Of a stretch of 64,000 bases of DNA, positions 3,656-54,558 are shown piece after piece. Source of the stretch: Flavobacterium filum DSM 17961 (lineage in GTDB: Bacteria; Bacteroidota; Bacteroidia; Flavobacteriales; Flavobacteriaceae); NCBI RefSeq assembly GCF_000425465.1, contig NZ_AUDM01000005.1, positions 124,001 through 188,000 of the forward strand. The letters run 5' to 3'. Every line of letters begins with the position of its first letter. The stretch's first letter is position 1. Under the pieces are notes generated by a model, which saw nothing but the letters and a program-made list of their open reading frames with translations, was not told the DNA's origin and made no database searches. The translations under genes were made by a program, and so were the position numbers.

Positions 3656-5356
3656 ATGAAAAAATACCTAGAAATACTTTTCTTACTAACCTTTTTTTGT
3701 CATTCTTATACTGTTTTTGCACAAGTTGATGTGGTGTACAACAATCTAGTCTGGTCAGACGAATTTGACAATAACGGTGCAGTTAATACGATTAAATGGC
3801 ATCATCAAACCCAACTCCCCAATGGGAGCAGTTGGTACAACGGAGAAGTACAACATTACACCAACTTAATTACCAATTCTTATGTCAGTGATGGTAAATT
3901 AACCATTAAGGCGATAAAAGAACCTTATACCAATCAAGGTGTAACCAAGCAATATACTTCTGCCAGATTAAATTCAAAGTTTGCTTTTAAATATGGAAGA
4001 GTAGATATTCGGGCAAAGATTCCAACCAATCAAGGTACTTGGCCTGCACTTTGGTTATTGGGTAAAAATGTGAATGAACCCGGCGGTTTTTGGCAACCTC
4101 AGTTTGGCAATACCAATTGGCCGGCTTGCGGTGAAATTGACATCGTGGAGCATGGAATTACGCCTTCTCAACCGCAAAATTATATTCAGAGTGCTATTCA
4201 TACGCCTTCTTCATTTGGAAATACAGTCAATCATGGCGGGACAATTGCTTCCAATTTAGGAAATGATTTTCATGTATATTCTATGAATTGGTCACCTTTT
4301 CAAATTACATTTTTATTAGACGGCGTTCCTTTTTATACGTATAATCCGGCAGTAAAAAATGCCAGCACTTGGCCTTTTGATGCTGAACAATATTTGTTAC
4401 TGAATATTGCCATGGGAGGAGTAGCAGGAAACATTCCGGCTTCTTTTACGCAAGCTTCTATGGAAATTGATTATGTACGAGTATATCAAAACATAGAACC
4501 GGATAATCAACCGCCAACCGCTTTTACGGCAACCGTAGGAGCAGTAACGAGTTCTACCGTAGAATTATTACTTAATGCGAATGACAATTCTGGAACGGTC
4601 GTTTATATGATAAATTATGGAAGCAATTCGATTACGGTTGCCAATGCTTCCGGAGAGGAAAAATCTGTAGTTATCCCCAACTTGTTACCAGTTACTGCTT
4701 ATACATTTTCTGTATCTGCTTCAGATGTCACGGGAAACGCTTATGTAAATAATCCAATAGTGTTGAATGCAACTACTTCAGCTGTCTTGGGTTGTTCAGG
4801 CACTGATAATCAAGCACAACAAGGAACGTTTACTACGGGCTATAACTATCAATTTGAAACACTTGGAAACGATGTTAAAATAACATTTACATTATTAGAT
4901 ACCGATAAAGTAGGAGTGGTGGCATTTCTATGGCGTCAATCTCCTTTTACAGAGTATCAAATGGCAAATGTTTCCGGGAATCAATTTACCTATACAATTA
5001 CTAATCAAACACAAGGAGCAACCATTAACTATGCGGTAAAATTTGCGTATGCAGGTGGATTTTCAGTGACTAGGTATTTCTCTTATGTAGTGGGAAGTAA
5101 TTGTGCGTTAGAAGTGCCAAATTTTGAGGATAAACAAGCTCATTTTTCTGTTATCAATCCGGTTAAGGATTTTGTTCAAATCAGCACAATAAAAACTATT
5201 GATCGAGTTGAAATAATCGATTTAATGGGAAGATTACTTTATCAATCCAACCAAAATATAAACACAATTGAGGTGAAAGACTTACCAAAGGGGAATTATA
5301 TGTTAATGATTTATTCAGGTTTGATAAAAGAAGTAAAAAAGATAATTATCAAGTAA
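3656..5356 (+). CDS. Secreted GH16 laminarinase (endo-beta-1,3-glucanase) with T9SS sorting domain
   Basis: The protein of 566 residues starts with a clear signal peptide ending at VFAQ (residue 23). A GH16 domain fills residues 25-280 and holds the catalytic motif GEIDIVEH, with E160 nucleophile, D162 and E165 acid/base. A fibronectin type III-like module follows (about 285-375), then a beta-rich module of about 100 residues starting at CSGTDNQ that may bind carbohydrate, and finally a T9SS type A sorting domain (FSVINPVKDF to the end). The enzyme should be exported across both membranes and cut laminarin or mixed-linkage glucan outside the cell. It is the last gene of the glucan operon on this strand, 92 bp after the free GH17 gene. 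Confidence 0.9.
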   Translation: MKKYLEILFLLTFFCHSYTVFAQVDVVYNNLVWSDEFDNNGAVNTIKWHHQTQLPNGSSWYNGEVQHYTNLITNSYVSDGKLTIKAIKEPYTNQGVTKQYTSARLNSKFAFKYGRVDIRAKIPTNQGTWPALWLLGKNVNEPGGFWQPQFGNTNWPACGEIDIVEHGITPSQPQNYIQSAIHTPSSFGNTVNHGGTIASNLGNDFHVYSMNWSPFQITFLLDGVPFYTYNPAVKNASTWPFDAEQYLLLNIAMGGVAGNIPASFTQASMEIDYVRVYQNIEPDNQPPTAFTATVGAVTSSTVELLLNANDNSGTVVYMINYGSNSITVANASGEEKSVVIPNLLPVTAYTFSVSASDVTGNAYVNNPIVLNATTSAVLGCSGTDNQAQQGTFTTGYNYQFETLGNDVKITFTLLDTDKVGVVAFLWRQSPFTEYQMANVSGNQFTYTITNQTQGATINYAVKFAYAGGFSVTRYFSYVVGSNCALEVPNFEDKQAHFSVINPVKDFVQISTIKTIDRVEIIDLMGRLLYQSNQNINTIEVKDLPKGNYMLMIYSGLIKEVKKIIIK

Positions 5357-5410
5357 GATAAATTGGCTTATTAGGAAACATTTTCAATCAAGGTGTAAGT
5401 ATAAATTAAA

Positions 5411-5610
5411 GTGAGTTCGACGTAATTATATTTAAATTTAGACACGAATTGCACGAATTTACACGAATTATAATTTTTAACAATTAAGTTTCACGAATTA
5501 AATCTGATTTATCAGATTTTATTGTTATAATATTCCATCTTCAATTCGTGTTAATTAGTGTAATTCGTGTAAAATGGTGAATGTTTCTTTGGTTTTTATA
5601 TCGAACTCAC
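5411..5610. repeat. MITE-like palindromic intergenic element
   Basis: The spacer after the GH16 gene is 342 bp long and holds no gene. About 200 bp of it form a nested imperfect palindrome. The outer arms are GTGAGTTCGA (5411-5420) and its exact reverse complement TCGAACTCAC (5601-5610). Inner arms are repeats of ACACGAATT at 5442-5470 matched by AATTCGTGT copies at 5542-5571. The centre is a hairpin of AAATCTGAT and ATCAGATTT around 5501-5519. This layout is that of a non-coding miniature element or a large REP-like hairpin. No transposase is present and no target duplication is obvious. Confidence 0.6.
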
Positions 5611-5647
5611 GTTAAATTATTGTTTTCAAAATAAAATTTTTACCAAT

Positions 5648-5684
5648 AAAAAAGGCAGTCGATTTAAGACTGCCTTTTGTTTTA
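5648..5684 (-). terminator. Intrinsic terminator of the T9SS glucan-locus gene, likely bidirectional
   Basis: AAAAGGCAGTC at 5650-5660 and GACTGCCTTTT at 5668-5678 form an 11-bp stem with a 7-nt loop. On the minus strand it follows the stop of the 463-residue gene by about 20 bp and ends in a T run. On the plus strand a T-rich stretch also follows, so it may stop transcription from both sides. Confidence 0.85.
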
Positions 5685-5698
5685 AAACCAATTTATGA

Positions 5699-16257: not shown

Positions 16258-16282
16258 AAAAGTTAATCTTTATATAATCGAT

Positions 16283-16326
16283 GTACTAATTAGCCAAAAA
16301 AAGCTAACTTAGTACATTGTTTTTTA
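16283..16326 (+). terminator. Probable terminator after serS
   Basis: GTACTAATTAGC (16283-16294) pairs with GCTAACTTAGTAC (16303-16315) with one bulged base. The loop is A-rich, and a T run (16319-16324) follows after four bases. It lies 26 bp after the serS stop and just before the TPR gene. Confidence 0.6.
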
Positions 16327-16333
16327 CACACCA

Positions 16334-18159: not shown

Positions 18160-18489
18160 ATGATTTTATACAACGTAACCATCAATATTGACCAAAGTGT
18201 TCACGACAAGTGGATGCGTTGGATGCAAACCAAACACATCAATGATGTTTTAGCAACAGGTAAATTCATCTCGGCTAGAATGATAAAAGTTTTGGTAGAA
18301 GAAGAAGGCAGTATGACCTATTCTATACAATACACCGCGGAAAGCAAAGAAATGCTAGACCGCTATTATGAAGAAGACGCACCGCGATTACGCCAAGAAG
18401 GACTATCTCTTTTTGGAGATAAAATGTTGGCATTCAGAACAGAATTATTGGTAATTAGCGAGTTTTTTCCACAATCTGCCATGCAATAA
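18160..18489 (+). CDS. DUF4286 family protein
   Basis: The small soluble protein of 109 residues matches the DUF4286 pattern: it starts MILYNVTINID, then VHDKWMRWMQTKHI, and later SIQYTAESKEMLDRYYEEDAPRLRQEG. The fold is probably ferredoxin-like (dimeric alpha+beta barrel type), judging from its short beta-alpha-beta layout. The function is unknown. The gene sits directly before rsmA in this window. The family call comes from recognition of the sequence and its neighbourhood. Confidence 0.7.
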   Translation: MILYNVTINIDQSVHDKWMRWMQTKHINDVLATGKFISARMIKVLVEEEGSMTYSIQYTAESKEMLDRYYEEDAPRLRQEGLSLFGDKMLAFRTELLVISEFFPQSAMQ

Positions 18490-18551
18490 CCTTAGCCACT
18501 CAGAACCTTAGTCCCTCAGAACCTCAGAACCTCGGTCCCTTAGAACCTTAG
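18488..18551 (+). repeat. Eight degenerate octamers (consensus NNCCTYAG) between DUF4286 and rsmA
   Basis: The spacer is filled by exactly eight 8-bp units: AACCTTAG, CCACTCAG, AACCTTAG, TCCCTCAG, AACCTCAG, AACCTCGG, TCCCTTAG, AACCTTAG. The first overlaps the DUF4286 stop codon and the last ends five bases before the rsmA ATG. The same octamer family is found at 29646-29693. Confidence 0.85.
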
Positions 18552-18556
18552 CCAAA

Positions 18557-19336
18557 ATGGAAAAAGTAAAAGCAAAAAAACACCTCGGGCAACATTTTCT
18601 AAACGATGAAAATATTGCACAGAAAATAGCCGATTCGCTAACGTTAAAGGGTTACCAAACGGTTTTAGAGATTGGACCCGGAATGGGCGTTTTGACCAAA
18701 TATTTGTTAGAAAAACCCATTTCTACCTATGTGATTGAAATCGACACAGAATCGGTAGATTATCTCAACAAGCATTATCCAAAGTTGGAAGGAAAAATCA
18801 TTTCCAAAGATTTTTTAAAATACAATTTAAGTGAAGTGTTTGGTCAAGAGTCATTGGCTATAATTGGTAATTTTCCTTATAATATTTCTTCTCAAATCGT
18901 ATTTAAAACCTTGGAACTTCGTGATAGAATCCCTGAATTTTCCGGTATGTTTCAAAAAGAAGTTGCTGAACGCATTTGTGAAAAAAAAGGGTCTAAAACG
19001 TATGGAATTTTATCGGTTTTAACCCAAGCTTTTTATGAAGCGGAATACCTTTTTACCGTTTCCGAAAATGTGTTTACGCCACCACCAAAAGTAAAATCGG
19101 GAGTGTTGCGGTTAATTCGCAAAGAAAATTTCAAACTGCCTTGTGATGAAAAATTGTTTTTTACGGTGGTAAAAACGGCTTTCAATCAAAGAAGAAAAAC
19201 ACTTCGTAACAGTTTAAAAACATACCAATTGTCGGATAATTTAAAAGAAGATAGTATCTTTGACCTCAGACCGGAACAACTTTCGGTAGAACAATTTATA
19301 GAACTCACGCAAAAAATAACCGCCGATGGAGTTTAA
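18557..19336 (+). CDS. rsmA: 16S rRNA (adenine(1518)-N(6)/adenine(1519)-N(6))-dimethyltransferase
   Basis: This 259-residue enzyme (KsgA) dimethylates two neighbouring adenines in the 3' hairpin of 16S rRNA during late 30S assembly. Visible motifs are [13 protein letters not shown] at the N-terminus, the SAM loop [13 protein letters not shown], and the catalytic motif [11 protein letters not shown] (NFPY in place of the common NLPY, as in Bacteroidetes). The C-terminal helical domain ends with [13 protein letters not shown] and later segments. Length is normal. Its end overlaps the mgtE start by 11 bp, pointing to a coupled operon. Confidence 0.96.
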
Positions 19337-27844: not shown

Positions 27845-28606
27845 ATGAAGATTATTTCCTATAATGTGAACGGAATTCGGGCCGCTATAACCAAAGGTTT
27901 TTTAGACTGGCTTCAACAAGCAAATCCGGATGTCATTTGTTTACAAGAAATCAAAGCTACAGAGGATCAAATTCCTACTGAAGCTATTGCAGCAGCAGGC
28001 TATCCTTATCAATATTACTTTTCTGCTCAAAAAAAAGGATATAGTGGCGTAGCTATTCTGTCTAAAATTCAACCCAAAAATGTTGTTTTCGGTACCGGAA
28101 TTGAATCAATGGATGTTGAAGGTCGAAATGTGAGAGCCGATTTTGATGATTTTTCGGTGATGAGTTTATATCTTCCATCCGGAACAAACATTGAACGATT
28201 AGACCATAAATTCAAATATATGGACGATTTTCAGCAGTATATTAATACGTTGAAAGTTGAAATTCCAAACTTAATTATTGGTGGCGATTATAACATTTGT
28301 CATGAAGCCATCGATATTCATGACCCTATCAGAAATGCAACCGTTTCCGGATTTTTACCTGAAGAACGACGTTGGTTAGATGGTTTTATGAAAAGCGGAT
28401 TCATTGATAGTTTCCGTCATTTTAATAAAGAACCCCATCAATATTCGTGGTGGAGTTATCGTGCCAATGCCCGAAACAATAACAAAGGATGGCGAATTGA
28501 TTATCATTTGGTGAGTGAACCCCTCCGAAACCGATTAAAAAGAGCAGTCATTCTTCCGGAAGCGAAACATTCTGACCATTGCCCAATTGTAGTAGAAATT
28601 GACTAA
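27845..28606 (+). CDS. xth: Exodeoxyribonuclease III (AP endonuclease)
   Basis: The 253-residue protein is a complete member of the ExoIII/AP endonuclease family: MKIISYNVNGIRAA, LQEIKA (metal-binding Glu), GYSGVAILSK, IGGDYNICHE (catalytic Asp and Asn), WWSYRANARNNNKGWRIDYHLVS and KHSDHCPIVVEID at the end (catalytic His). It incises DNA 5' to abasic sites and removes nucleotides from 3' ends in base excision repair. The downstream OmpA-type gene begins 25 bp after its stop. Confidence 0.95.
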   Translation: MKIISYNVNGIRAAITKGFLDWLQQANPDVICLQEIKATEDQIPTEAIAAAGYPYQYYFSAQKKGYSGVAILSKIQPKNVVFGTGIESMDVEGRNVRADFDDFSVMSLYLPSGTNIERLDHKFKYMDDFQQYINTLKVEIPNLIIGGDYNICHEAIDIHDPIRNATVSGFLPEERRWLDGFMKSGFIDSFRHFNKEPHQYSWWSYRANARNNNKGWRIDYHLVSEPLRNRLKRAVILPEAKHSDHCPIVVEID

Positions 28607-28631
28607 AAATAAACCTCAAATAACAAACAAA

Positions 28632-29597
28632 ATGATTAAAAAAGTTTCTTTAATAGTATTGGTGGCGGCATTATCCACTTCATGCGTTTCAAAAAAAGTA
28701 TATAATGAATTAGAAAGCAAATATGCAGCTTTAAAAAAACAACAACGCGAGTTATCAGATGAAAATCACGGACTTGAAAAAGCTAAAAATCAATTAGAAA
28801 ACGACTTGAAGAAAAACCAAGATGAATTAGCCAAAATCAAAGCCGAACGCGATAAATTAAAAACAGATTATGATGCTGCGGCCAATAATTTAAAAACATT
28901 ACAAACTTCGTATGCCGCGTTAGAAAAAAATTCTGATGAAGCTTTGCAAGCTAATATGAAGAAAAACAGAGAGTTATTAGCTCAGCTTGACGCAAAAGAG
29001 AAAGCATTGGCAGCCGAACAAGATCGATTGAACAAATTACAAGCTGATTTAAAAGACCGTTCGCAACGTGTAGATGAATTAGAAGGTTTGATTGCAGCAA
29101 AAGAAGCCAATATGCGAAAATTGAAAGAAACACTTTCAAAAGCGTTGGGCGGATTTGAAGGAAAAGGACTTACGGTGGAGCAAAAAAACGGAAAAGTGTA
29201 TGTTTCCATGGAAAATAAATTACTCTTCCAAACCGGTAGCTGGGCTGTTGGTTCAGAAGGTAGAAAAGCCGTTGTTGAGGTGGGAAAAGTATTAGCTCAA
29301 AACCCGGATATTTCTGTATTAATTGAAGGACATACCGATAATGACAAAATCACAGGAACATTAGGTGGCGGAATCGAAAACAACTGGGATTTATCTACTA
29401 AAAGAGCAACTGCCATTGTGAATATTTTAGCAGAAAATAAAGGTGTTTTAAAAGAAAATCTTACTGCTGCCGGACGTGGAGAATTTGCTCCACTTATGAC
29501 AAATGATTCTCCGGAAGGCAAAGCTAAAAATCGTAGAATCGAAATTATTTTGACACCGAAATTAGATGAGATTTCTAAAATGTTGAATGAATTATAA
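28632..29597 (+). CDS. OmpA-family outer-membrane lipoprotein with coiled coil
   Basis: The start was placed at ATG 28632, which gives a lipoprotein signal with lipobox LSTSC (Cys18) and a product of 321 residues; an upstream TTG would add an unlikely polar extension. After the Cys comes a long coiled coil (about 25-175, many KNQLEND/KDRSQRVDELE heptads), then an OmpA C-terminal domain (about 200-310) with ISVLIEGHTDND and the NRRIEIIL tail that binds peptidoglycan. It likely links the outer membrane to the cell wall. The odd coiled coil could span the periplasm. Confidence 0.9.
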   Translation: MIKKVSLIVLVAALSTSCVSKKVYNELESKYAALKKQQRELSDENHGLEKAKNQLENDLKKNQDELAKIKAERDKLKTDYDAAANNLKTLQTSYAALEKNSDEALQANMKKNRELLAQLDAKEKALAAEQDRLNKLQADLKDRSQRVDELEGLIAAKEANMRKLKETLSKALGGFEGKGLTVEQKNGKVYVSMENKLLFQTGSWAVGSEGRKAVVEVGKVLAQNPDISVLIEGHTDNDKITGTLGGGIENNWDLSTKRATAIVNILAENKGVLKENLTAAGRGEFAPLMTNDSPEGKAKNRRIEIILTPKLDEISKMLNEL

Positions 29598-29601
29598 AAT
29601 A

Positions 29602-29693
29602 GGTTCTGAGTCGCTAAGGTGCTAAGTTACTAAGATTTTGATCTTACCTCAGCACCTCAGCACCTTAGTACCTCAGTCCCTCAGTCCCTCAAA
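29602..29693. repeat. Octamer-repeat hairpin between the OmpA and aldo/keto reductase genes
   Basis: The right arm is six octamers (ACCTCAGC, ACCTCAGC, ACCTTAGT, ACCTCAGT, CCCTCAGT, CCCTCAAA; 29646-29693) that end exactly at the next ATG. The left arm (29607-29635, CTGAGTCGCTAAGGTGCTAA and on) is made of the same octamers in the opposite sense. The two arms can fold into an imperfect stem with a short loop near 29636-29641. The unit family is that of 18488-18551. Confidence 0.8.
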
Positions 29694-30728
29694 ATGAAAT
29701 ATACAACCCTTTCCCACACCAACATAAAAATCAGTACAATCTGTTTGGGAACCATGACTTTTGGTGAACAAAATACCGAAAGTGAAGCCCATGAACAATT
29801 GGATTATGCCGTTTCTCGTGGTATAAATTTCATTGATACGGCAGAAATGTACCCGATTGCTGCCCGAAAAGAAACCTTGGGAAGTACCGAACGATTTATC
29901 GGAAGTTGGTTAAAAAACAGAGGAAAACGTGATGATTTAGTAATCGCCACAAAAATTGCTGGACCCAATCGCGGAATGGAGTATATTCGTCAACCGCTTG
30001 ATTTTTCTGCCAAAAGTATCAAAGAAGCGGTTGATTTAAGTTTGAAAAACCTGCAAACTGATTACATCGATTTGTACCAAATGCATTGGCCGGAACGCGT
30101 AATGAATATGTTTGGAAAACGCGGTTTAACCGAAATTGATACCAATTGGAAAGAAAACATTGCTGAAGTTTTATCTGTTTATAATGAGTTAATTAAATCT
30201 GGAAAGATTCGCCATATTGGCGTTTCTAACGAAGCTCCATGGGCTGTGATGAAGTTCATCAGCGAAAGCGAAAAGCATAATCTACCTCGAATTGCTACGA
30301 TTCAAAATCCGTATTCGTTGTTAAATCGACTTTTTGAAGTGGGTTTAACGGAAGTTTGTATGCGAGAAAATATTGGTTTAATGGCGTATTCTCCACTTGG
30401 TTTTGGCATTTTATCAGGTAAACATTTAAATGGAGCCCAACCCAATTCTCGCATAAGATTGTTTCCGCAATTTACACGATATACCTCTGAAAATGCAACC
30501 AAAGCCACAAAATTATATCAAGAATTAGCCCATAGTCACGGATTGACTTTAACGCAAATGGCATTGGCTTTTGTACAACATCAACAATTTGTGATGAGCA
30601 CGATTATTGGAGCAACTTCTTTACAACAGTTGAAAGAAAACATCGACTCACATGAAATTGTACTTTCAGAAGAAATTTTAAAAGAAATAGAAAAAATCCA
30701 CGAAATGATACCGAATCCGGCACCATAA
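29694..30728 (+). CDS. Aldo/keto reductase
   Basis: The 344-residue enzyme is a TIM-barrel NADPH-dependent reductase of the Tas/AKR type. Seen are LGTMTFGEQNTESEAHEQLDYAV, FIDTAEMYP (catalytic Asp and Tyr), ATKIAGP (catalytic Lys), DLYQMHWPER (catalytic His), IRHIGVSNE and MAYSPLGFGILSGK, with the C-terminal cofactor segment STIIGATSLQQLKENI. It resembles E. coli Tas. It acts in the cytoplasm on an unknown carbonyl substrate. It follows a long octamer-repeat spacer and has no partner gene. Confidence 0.93.
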   Translation: MKYTTLSHTNIKISTICLGTMTFGEQNTESEAHEQLDYAVSRGINFIDTAEMYPIAARKETLGSTERFIGSWLKNRGKRDDLVIATKIAGPNRGMEYIRQPLDFSAKSIKEAVDLSLKNLQTDYIDLYQMHWPERVMNMFGKRGLTEIDTNWKENIAEVLSVYNELIKSGKIRHIGVSNEAPWAVMKFISESEKHNLPRIATIQNPYSLLNRLFEVGLTEVCMRENIGLMAYSPLGFGILSGKHLNGAQPNSRIRLFPQFTRYTSENATKATKLYQELAHSHGLTLTQMALAFVQHQQFVMSTIIGATSLQQLKENIDSHEIVLSEEILKEIEKIHEMIPNPAP

Positions 30729-30741
30729 GTTGGTTATCAGT

Positions 30742-30896
30742 CAGTTAACTGTTAAAAGTCGCAGAATACACTGCATTCTAGTCCTTCAGACGAAGGAGGA
30801 ATCTCAATCGCAGTTTTCACAAAATATTGTAGAAAGCTGTCAAATCTGTGTAAATCTGCGTTTTGCAAAGCAAATCCGTCCCGATAGCTATCGGAA
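30742..30896. repeat. Cluster of small palindromes in the aldo/keto reductase - sugar dehydrogenase spacer
   Basis: This convergent 190-bp spacer holds CAGTTAACTG (30742-30751), TCCTTC-AGAC-GAAGGA (30782-30797) and CCGATAGCTATCGG (30882-30895), all perfect inverted repeats. No ORF or T-tailed terminator is evident. Confidence 0.6.
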
Positions 30897-30918
30897 TCAG
30901 CGTTCCATTTTCGGGAGA

Positions 30919-54212: not shown

Positions 54213-54272
54213 TCAGTTAGTAGTTTGTAGTTAGTGTACACTAATTACTAATCACTAATCACTAATCACTAA
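54213..54272. repeat. Heptamer-repeat spacer with central palindrome between atpD and atpC
   Basis: The 64-bp spacer has a right arm of three perfect ACTAATC heptamers plus ACTAA (54247-54272), a left arm of the reverse sense (TAGTTTG, TAGTTAG), and a central perfect palindrome TTAGTGTACACTAA (54231-54244). It ends four bases before the atpC ATG. The design is like that of the octamer spacers at 18488 and 29602 but with a different unit length. Confidence 0.75.
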
Positions 54273-54276
54273 AAGA

Positions 54277-54558
54277 ATGATTTTAGAAATAGTATCACCA
54301 GAAGCCACTTTATTCAAAGGAGAAATTACAGCCATCACTCTACCAGGTGTTGACGGTTCTTTTCAAATTTTGAATAATCACGCACCAATTGTTTCTATTT
54401 TAAAACAAGGAACGGTAAAAATTACGGCTCCCAATTTTAAATTCAATAAAGAAGTTGCCGGAAAGTTTACAAAGGTTAATGATCAAAATTACACGCTGGA
54501 AATTGCTTCAGGAACCATTGAAATGAAAAACAATAAAGTAATTGTATTAGCGGATTAA
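54277..54558 (+). CDS. atpC: F1Fo ATP synthase subunit epsilon (short form)
   Basis: The 93-residue protein is the beta-sandwich domain of epsilon: LEIVSPEATLFKGEITAITLPGVDGSFQILNNHAPIVSILKQGTVKI, ending in ASGTIEMKNNKVIVLAD. The two C-terminal helices that inhibit ATP hydrolysis in E. coli are absent. The end is natural (stop codon, then terminator), and this short form is the usual one in Bacteroidetes. It follows atpD. Confidence 0.92.
   Translation: MILEIVSPEATLFKGEITAITLPGVDGSFQILNNHAPIVSILKQGTVKITAPNFKFNKEVAGKFTKVNDQNYTLEIASGTIEMKNNKVIVLAD

Follow-up and report, generated by a model that had tools for sequence, protein, structure and literature searches.

Why does the gap between two genes of Flavobacterium filum DSM 17961 consist of one degenerate word, repeated in tandem from one gene to the next? 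This question is raised by the spacer between a DUF4286 gene and rsmA, which we analyzed within a 64,000-nucleotide stretch of the genome (hereafter, the window). A preliminary description of this DNA had reported an array extending from the DUF4286 stop codon to five bases before rsmA, and this span was borne out by the open reading frames (ORFs) and the sequence. We tentatively favor the reading that this array represents a start-side arm belonging to an intercistronic word-array element, one of a group of RNA-level leaders and stems that may tune initiation of the downstream gene.

Word arrays and their position relative to genes

From position 18488, the units were AACCTTAG, CCACTCAG, AACCTTAG, TCCCTCAG, AACCTCAG, AACCTCGG, TCCCTTAG, and AACCTTAG. 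They had been described as eight copies of NNCCTYAG with a strict 8-bp period; the array is real and above chance, and six of the eight units of the 64-base spacer match this word exactly, but CCACTCAG and AACCTCGG are one base off. The first octamer begins within the DUF4286 stop codon and shares its final two bases, and five bases (CCAAA) stand between the last octamer and the rsmA ATG at 18557. Tandem Repeats Finder (TRF) scored the array at 79 for period 24, 60 for period 16, and 51 for period 8. The predicted fold contained no long stem, in agreement with the earlier statement that no dyad is present here, and the start-side arm stands on its own. The G+C-rich stem and T run of an intrinsic terminator were not found at 18488-18551, the long stem being missing.

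The genome scan proposed along with that description (3.19 Mb in 50 contigs) revealed many further sites. Three consecutive NNCCTYAG units were matched 26 times (14 + 12; reversed control, 0 + 0), and three CTNAG units at period 8 were matched 116 times per strand (control, 0). Arm positions were determined for 50 arms of at least three CTYAG units from the window and 31 fetched stretches, drawn from 100 of the 112 CTYAG matches listed with the last contigs mostly outside, and genes were assigned by simple longest-frame ORF calls. Forty-eight of these arms were intergenic. Read along the CTYAG strand, 32 arms pointed to a start codon, 16 to a stop codon, and two had no gene ahead. Among the start-facing arms, 23 lay within 40 nt of the start, which was ATG in all 23 cases and 9-14 nt away in 16 of them, and 11 of the 16 stop-facing arms, which lie after gene ends, were within 11 nt of the stop codon. 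A start-side and a stop-side arm in one spacer make an inverted pair, as at 29606-29692.

For that spacer, the same unit had been noted at 29646-29693 before a start codon; the site exists (TRF reports 29645-29691), but the complementary arm at 29606-29634 had been overlooked. The spacer between the OmpA-family and aldo/keto reductase genes is an inverted pair, with a predicted fold of -30.4 kcal/mol for 29590-29740. No T run follows the stem at 29606-29692, where CAAAATG is found instead, and it does not have the form of an intrinsic terminator.

Other words occupy other spacers. In a 400-kb sample of the genome, spacers of 40-250 bp were surveyed for tandem words (period 6-9, at least 15/21 matches, shuffle p ≤ 0.005), which were found in 12 of 97 codirectional versus 0 of 53 other spacers, with words varying by place; a first pass at another threshold gave 8/109 versus 0/57. 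The codirectional rule has a counterexample outside the length limit of the survey: the convergent spacer of 342 bp at 5357-5698, bounded by gene ends at 5356 and 5699, contains an inverted nonamer pair of another word family at 5442-5572 (ACACGAATT x3 and AATTCGTGT x3). The heptamer CACTAAT was found at four places in the genome (8 matches; control, 2).

CTYAG triples were also identified in 14 of the 59 relatives searched (one genome per species), all 14 being among the 36 that share the genus, and a single genome had as many as 279 matches. The reversed-pattern control was 0 in the F. filum genome and mostly 0 in relatives (22 in G008, 7 in G006, 6 in G016, and 1-5 in a few others). Four relatives larger than 5 Mb (G004, G006, G008, and G015) carried 153-279 CTYAG matches each. 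Twenty stretches of G006 and G015 were chosen by eye, many for having two arms; several dyads in these stretches (L120-L139) flank 80-350 bp of other sequence, and a second dyad of AAAG/CTTTG words lies beside the first in L122. Carriage of the arrays by viruses was considered and set aside: 38 viral stretches matched a four-unit pattern, and by eye many were simple homogeneous repeats and some were not. CTYAG arrays other than long homogeneous repeats were seen in L287, L292, L295/L307, and L296; the array of L295/L307 lies shortly before an ATG, and L296 (G+C 0.67) has three arrays.

Two outcomes had been named beforehand as speaking together against a repeat class, namely no further sites and no retention in relatives, and the result is divided: many other sites exist, but the array is not kept before rsmA. 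The closest named rsmA ortholog among the matches listed was that of F. suncheonense (86% of residues), followed mostly by other Flavobacterium, and at least three period-8 CTYAG units were found upstream of rsmA in 0 of 80 orthologs (L113 with 20 upstream bases only). The rsmA spacer was also considered as a conserved site for any tandem word, which was not shown in aggregate: 9 of 79 orthologs had such a word at p ≤ 0.01 (shuffle) versus 5 of 80 in-gene control stretches, and 16 versus 10 at p ≤ 0.05. Clear other words were present in single species (CTTTGCG in L063 and L090, CACTAAT in L091). Repeat-like pieces around GCTTCGTGCCTCGCAATGAC, or GTCATTCCTGC/ATTCCTAC, were seen in the rsmA spacers of other Flavobacteriaceae (L047, L067, L070, L081, L085, and L107).

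Word exchange at orthologous spacers

Three spacers were compared across species, using the best 30 matches of the 145, 149, and 145 genomes with a match, which are not a random draw; L212 (N in the sequence) and L164 (5-base spacer) were left out, and word families were labelled by hand-written regular expressions. At the first site (locus 1, a spacer of G015), a word array of 76-110 bp extended from the stop codon to just before the ATG in 29 of 30 orthologs, the exception being L199 with a plain 48-bp spacer. The words were CTYAG octamers in 19 species, an ACTG word of 6+7 bases in seven, AACACT heptamers in two, and CACTAAT in one. On the tree of the flanking genes (30 species), the word label changed at least nine times, and some of these changes separate well-supported sisters (L186/L190, L195/L196, and L184/L197).

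At atpD-atpC, a heptamer array was recognized by eye in all 30 rows (that of F. filum included), nearly all two-armed, and at least eight words were found (CACTAAT, CATAACT, AACCATC, AAACCAT, ATCTTCC, AACTTCT, AATCCTA, and AAAGCYT). The word changed at least 15 times among 29 rows, also within the supported sister pairs L203/L222 and L223/L225. Weak inner branches made up 9/27 (locus 1) and 15/26 (atpD-atpC) of the trees, and the change counts are near their possible maxima (11 and 19); they therefore indicate fast turnover and not a history. At the third spacer, some species had CTYAG octamers and others ACTTATATG words, while a few (L164, L166, L167, and L169) had neither of the two. Outside the genus, word dyads were present before atpC in the family members L238 and L241, and several others had short plain spacers. 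In species after species, the boundaries were the stop codon and an A-rich stretch before the ATG, and outside the arms nothing was left of an earlier spacer.

In some pairs, the exchange left the surrounding sequence nearly unchanged. Between L216 and L223, there was one difference in the 100 nt before the atpD-atpC spacer and none in the 100 nt after it, and the spacers (76 and 47 bp) were unrelated; between L203 and L222, the flanks were about 2.5% (upstream) and 5.7% (downstream) apart and the words differed. The control sequence, 100 nt upstream of atpD, was 0% apart in the first of these pairs and 5% apart in the second, versus 54% and 36% for the atpD-atpC spacer. In the eight closest pairs, the pre-atpD sequence was 0-5% apart (the control covered the 26 of 29 rows with sufficient sequence), while the spacers were 5-55% apart, being kept in three (5-18%) and 33-55% apart in five. 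Where spacers are kept, they change slowly: the spacers of L179/L183 and L221/L229 were 2% apart, while third codon positions differed by about 16-22%, and among pairs with spacer divergence under 25%, the spacer diverged less than third codon positions on both sides in 79 of 84 pairs at locus 1 and 54 of 57 at atpD-atpC. The picture is one of constraint interrupted by whole-spacer replacements. In L223 (the atpD-atpC spacer of G012), the flanks look recombinant, the upstream one being nearest to L225 and the downstream one to L216, with an unrelated spacer between them. A donor for its AAAGCYT spacer was sought; the three-unit pattern occurred in G012 at that spacer only and in none of six other genomes, which argues against its being a copy of another locus still present.

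Neutral satellites, formed by replication slippage and local homogenisation and tolerated only between genes, would account for the tandem period of 7-9, for the nearly homogeneous arrays of L037 (12 units) and L019 (9 units), which must have expanded, and for the mixed spacer of L203, in which one arm apparently carries a newer word. This explanation seems improbable to us. Slippage should make neighbouring units most alike, and this was found in none of three sets: adjacent CTYAG units were less alike than in unit-order shuffles (P = 0.055 in the F. filum set, which left out arrays of more than eight units; P < 0.001 in G015/G006; P = 0.038 at locus 1), and units at lag 2 were more alike (P = 0.042, 0.011, and 0.096, respectively). 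The earlier suggestion that the rsmA spacer is a product of slippage thus finds no support for 8-nt steps, even if a few arrays did expand. The fixed strand, the nearly fixed distance to the ATG, the low divergence of retained arrays relative to third codon positions, and the divergence of the atpD-atpC spacer in the closest pairs also argue against neutral satellites.

Alternatively, hairpins resembling repetitive extragenic palindromic (REP) doublets forming hairpins (REPINs) or miniature inverted-repeat transposable elements (MITEs) might insert between genes through a transposase or recombination, with the words as element families, which we consider unlikely. An inverted pair able to form a hairpin was present at 29606-29692 and most orthologous sites, but absent at 18488-18551, and ACTG hairpins form dispersed families. 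Across 10 genomes, a 93-bp ACTG-word hairpin had 0-56 matches each; these counts are lower bounds, with scoring limited to 40 candidates per genome. However, nearly full-length matches at non-orthologous places had 71-80% identity, so that near-identical whole copies at different loci were not found among the matches listed (best 80%); single arms matched at 90-100% over 24-41 bases, and arms may therefore have been copied. Copying of whole arrays within the F. filum genome was rejected, as its arrays shared fewer two-unit strings than shuffles (5 versus about 15; three-unit strings, 1 versus 0.3-1.3). The lack of older-spacer remnants outside the arms and the boundaries at the stop codon and the A-rich stretch also argue against insertion. 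Among 37 genomes, the Y1 transposase domain (PF01797, E ≤ 0.001) had 4-6 matches in the array-rich genomes G006, G008, G015, G005, G025, and G031, but none in the array carriers G004 (153 array matches) and G030 (37), and G022 had eight Y1 matches and 0 array matches (no correlation was computed). The arrays of G004 and G030 speak against a Y1 transposase of the REP-associated tyrosine transposase (RAYT) type as the mover.

It is possible, though doubtful, that Flavobacterium operons carry genome-wide exchangeable intercistronic modules, in which the architecture (stop codon, complementary arm, start-side arm, A-rich stretch, and ATG) would be selected, the word would be replaced in single events with the flanks untouched, and word families would compete for sites.

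Predicted leaders and stems at start codons

Folding predictions indicated that the arrays leave the start region open. The predicted unpaired probability at -20 to +20 was 0.71 for 23 start-side CTYAG leaders versus 0.63 for shuffled ones (the native leader being the more open in 20 of 23; Wilcoxon 8e-6) and 0.61 when the array was reverse-complemented in place (native more open in 19 of 23, 1e-4); it was 0.70 in the 20 arms without a nearby left arm and 0.74 in the three with one, and 0.52 in 78 plain codirectional F. filum spacers. The start-side CTYAG leaders were rich in A and C (A 0.38, C 0.27, G 0.11, T 0.25). Both the position relative to the ATG and the predicted openness agree with the earlier suggestion that the spacer may tune translation, but do not demonstrate it.

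The orthologous spacers folded better than shuffles, with z below -3 in 20/29, 25/30, and 16/29 species at the three sites; among the CTYAG rows of locus 1, the stems of L180 and L191 were no better than shuffles. Pairing with the own arm was stronger than with an arm of another family (-20.2 versus -9.2 and -33.3 versus -12.7 kcal/mol at two sites). In two-armed orthologous spacers, the stem base lay 0-12 nt past the stop codon and the stem ended 4-26 nt before the ATG. This arm geometry suggests that the two genes may be coupled by the terminating ribosome.

A word such as (AACCUUAG)n might instead be the putative site of a sequence-reading factor, for example an RNA-binding protein, S1, or Rho acting on C-rich, G-poor RNA. 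The CTYAG core was intact in 167 of 174 units, in which the other three bases vary, and this is partly built in because the arms were found by that core; the start-side half of the atpD-atpC spacers is C-rich and nearly G-free (C 0.22, G 0.03), and MacGregor 2015 (PMC4679880) proposed S1, Csp, or Csr proteins as binders of TAACTGA arrays in Beggiatoaceae. On the other hand, several unrelated words occur in one genome and unrelated words occur at one site in sister species; one word-specific factor therefore cannot serve all of them, although a compositional reader such as Rho might still fit. Overall, we give such a factor little credence.

In this class, tandem degenerate words of 7-9 (sometimes 6+7) bases fill a codirectional gap from the stop codon to just before the ATG, with one arm in front of the ATG and, in many cases, a complementary arm behind the stop codon. 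According to the intercistronic-element reading, a single start-side arm, as at rsmA, would serve as a leader without structure and so leave the start region accessible to the 30S subunit. Bacteroidota do not use Shine-Dalgarno pairing, and a free start region should therefore matter in this phylum. With both arms present, a stem would form with its base at the stop and start codons, and a ribosome terminating on the upstream gene would melt the stem base and thereby couple or meter downstream initiation. The identity of the word would be largely free, so that one word family could take over from another.

Several observations weigh against this reading. Nine of the 32 start-facing arms were at least 56 nt from the called start, and 5 of the 16 stop-facing arms were at least 65 nt from the stop codon. 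Stop-side arms were also found at gene ends in convergent pairs, an arrangement that precludes coupling, and the stem cannot be essential because 20 of the 23 start-proximal CTYAG arms had no left arm within 100 nt. The two-armed orthologous sites were hardly more open than plain F. filum spacers (0.49, 0.48, and 0.59 versus 0.52), openness follows partly from composition, and the low G content was missing from the start-side half at locus 1 (G 0.15, C 0.16). Pairing with the own arm barely exceeded a swap within the same family (-20.2 versus -19.1 and -33.3 versus -30.3 kcal/mol), and compensatory changes within a word family were almost nil (1/20 and 0/24 pairs), too few for counting. Finally, the pairs used for constraint were preselected (<25% spacer divergence) and non-independent, and shared recent transfer of a spacer could mimic constraint.

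The features at the array-bearing spacers of the window are listed in Table 1. Two further spacers drew our attention: that at 16258-16333, between two codirectional genes, contains a long near-perfect hairpin (ATGTACTAATTAGC ... GCTAACTTAGTACAT), and the convergent spacer at 30729-30918 contains pieces resembling dispersed repeats, including CCCGATAGCTATCGG, a palindrome similar to CCCGATAGCTGTCGGG in the rsmA spacer of L046.

Table 1. Genes and word arrays at three spacers of the window
Feature	Position	Strand	Basis and remarks
DUF4286 gene, upstream neighbour	18160..18489	+	ORF call and Pfam; stop codon 18487-18489
Start-side (R-type) word array, eight octamers, single arm without dyad	18488..18551	+	Sequence, TRF, fold
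rsmA (RrnaAD)	18557..19336	+	ORF call and Pfam; ATG five bases past the array
OmpA-family gene, upstream of the second array	28599..29597	+	ORF call and Pfam
Stop-side (L-type) arm, four CTRAG units	29606..29634	-	8 bases past the OmpA-family stop codon
Start-side (R-type) arm, six octamers, last ending CTCAA	29645..29692	+	ATG at 29694; pairs with 29606-29634
Aldo/keto reductase gene, downstream	29694..30728	+	ORF call and Pfam
Heptamer word dyad in the atpD-atpC spacer (AGTTAGT-like arm followed by CACTAAT arm)	54213..54276	+	Occupies the whole gap between stop codon and ATG; of the same class, with a different word
atpC (epsilon subunit N-terminal domain), directly after the heptamer dyad	54277..54558	+	Pfam

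Relation to known repeats and meaning for operons

The statement in the preliminary description that this class seems not explained by known features was too strong, since TAACTGA arrays before start codons were described in 2015. In that study (MacGregor 2015, PMC4679880), TAACTGA heptamers were found ahead of start codons in Beggiatoaceae, in cyanobacteria, and in five Bacteroidetes, and Flexibacter had one set in reverse behind a stop codon; the proposed role is translational or in rearrangement, the functions of the genes follow no pattern, and the repeats are missing at the same place in some close relatives. In the features given there, the two are alike: they are intergenic, with one orientation before starts and reverse copies after stops, as in the F. 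filum arms counted above (48 of 50 intergenic, 32 start-facing, 16 stop-facing). The units are, however, not exact tandem TAACTGA heptamers. The Flavobacterium arrays differ in having an octamer with a CTYAG core rather than an exact heptamer (the heptamer spacer of the window being CACTAAT), many word families per genome, common two-armed stems, and word exchange traced in 29-30 species.

The short tandemly repeated repetitive (STRR) heptamers of cyanobacteria are degenerate, tandem, and intergenic. Flavobacterium arrays share these properties in a different lineage, and to our knowledge STRR heptamers have not been reported as paired arms at stop and start codons. REP/REPIN sequences with RAYT are likewise dispersed intergenic hairpins in many copies, whereas the Flavobacterium arrays are tandem words instead of a fixed palindrome, had no near-identical copies among the matches listed, and occur without a Y1 match in G004 and G030.

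For F. johnsoniae, the available part of a study of initiation regions (PMC6847099) reports that low structure around the start (-20 to +20) and A at several upstream positions accompany translation; the start region is open and A-rich as in the array leaders, and that part treats base preferences and structure and not tandem word arrays. These observations agree with a putative leader role of single arms such as the one before rsmA. In the literature covered (titles and abstract openings, with few subscription papers), CTYAG octamers or word exchange at orthologous spacers were not described, nor were such arrays in the available parts of a study of satellites (PMC6749651) and of a REP survey naming two Flavobacterium genomes (PMC12306157).

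If the proposed reading is true, the DNA between the genes of operons would hold a constrained structure with a wholly swappable sequence. In a phylum that initiates without Shine-Dalgarno pairing, this would connect a device of translation with a way of replacing sequence that has so far gone unrecognised. The array sites are many, short, and easily tested with reporters. TAACTGA, CTYAG, CACTAAT, and other repeat families would then be occupants of one kind of site.
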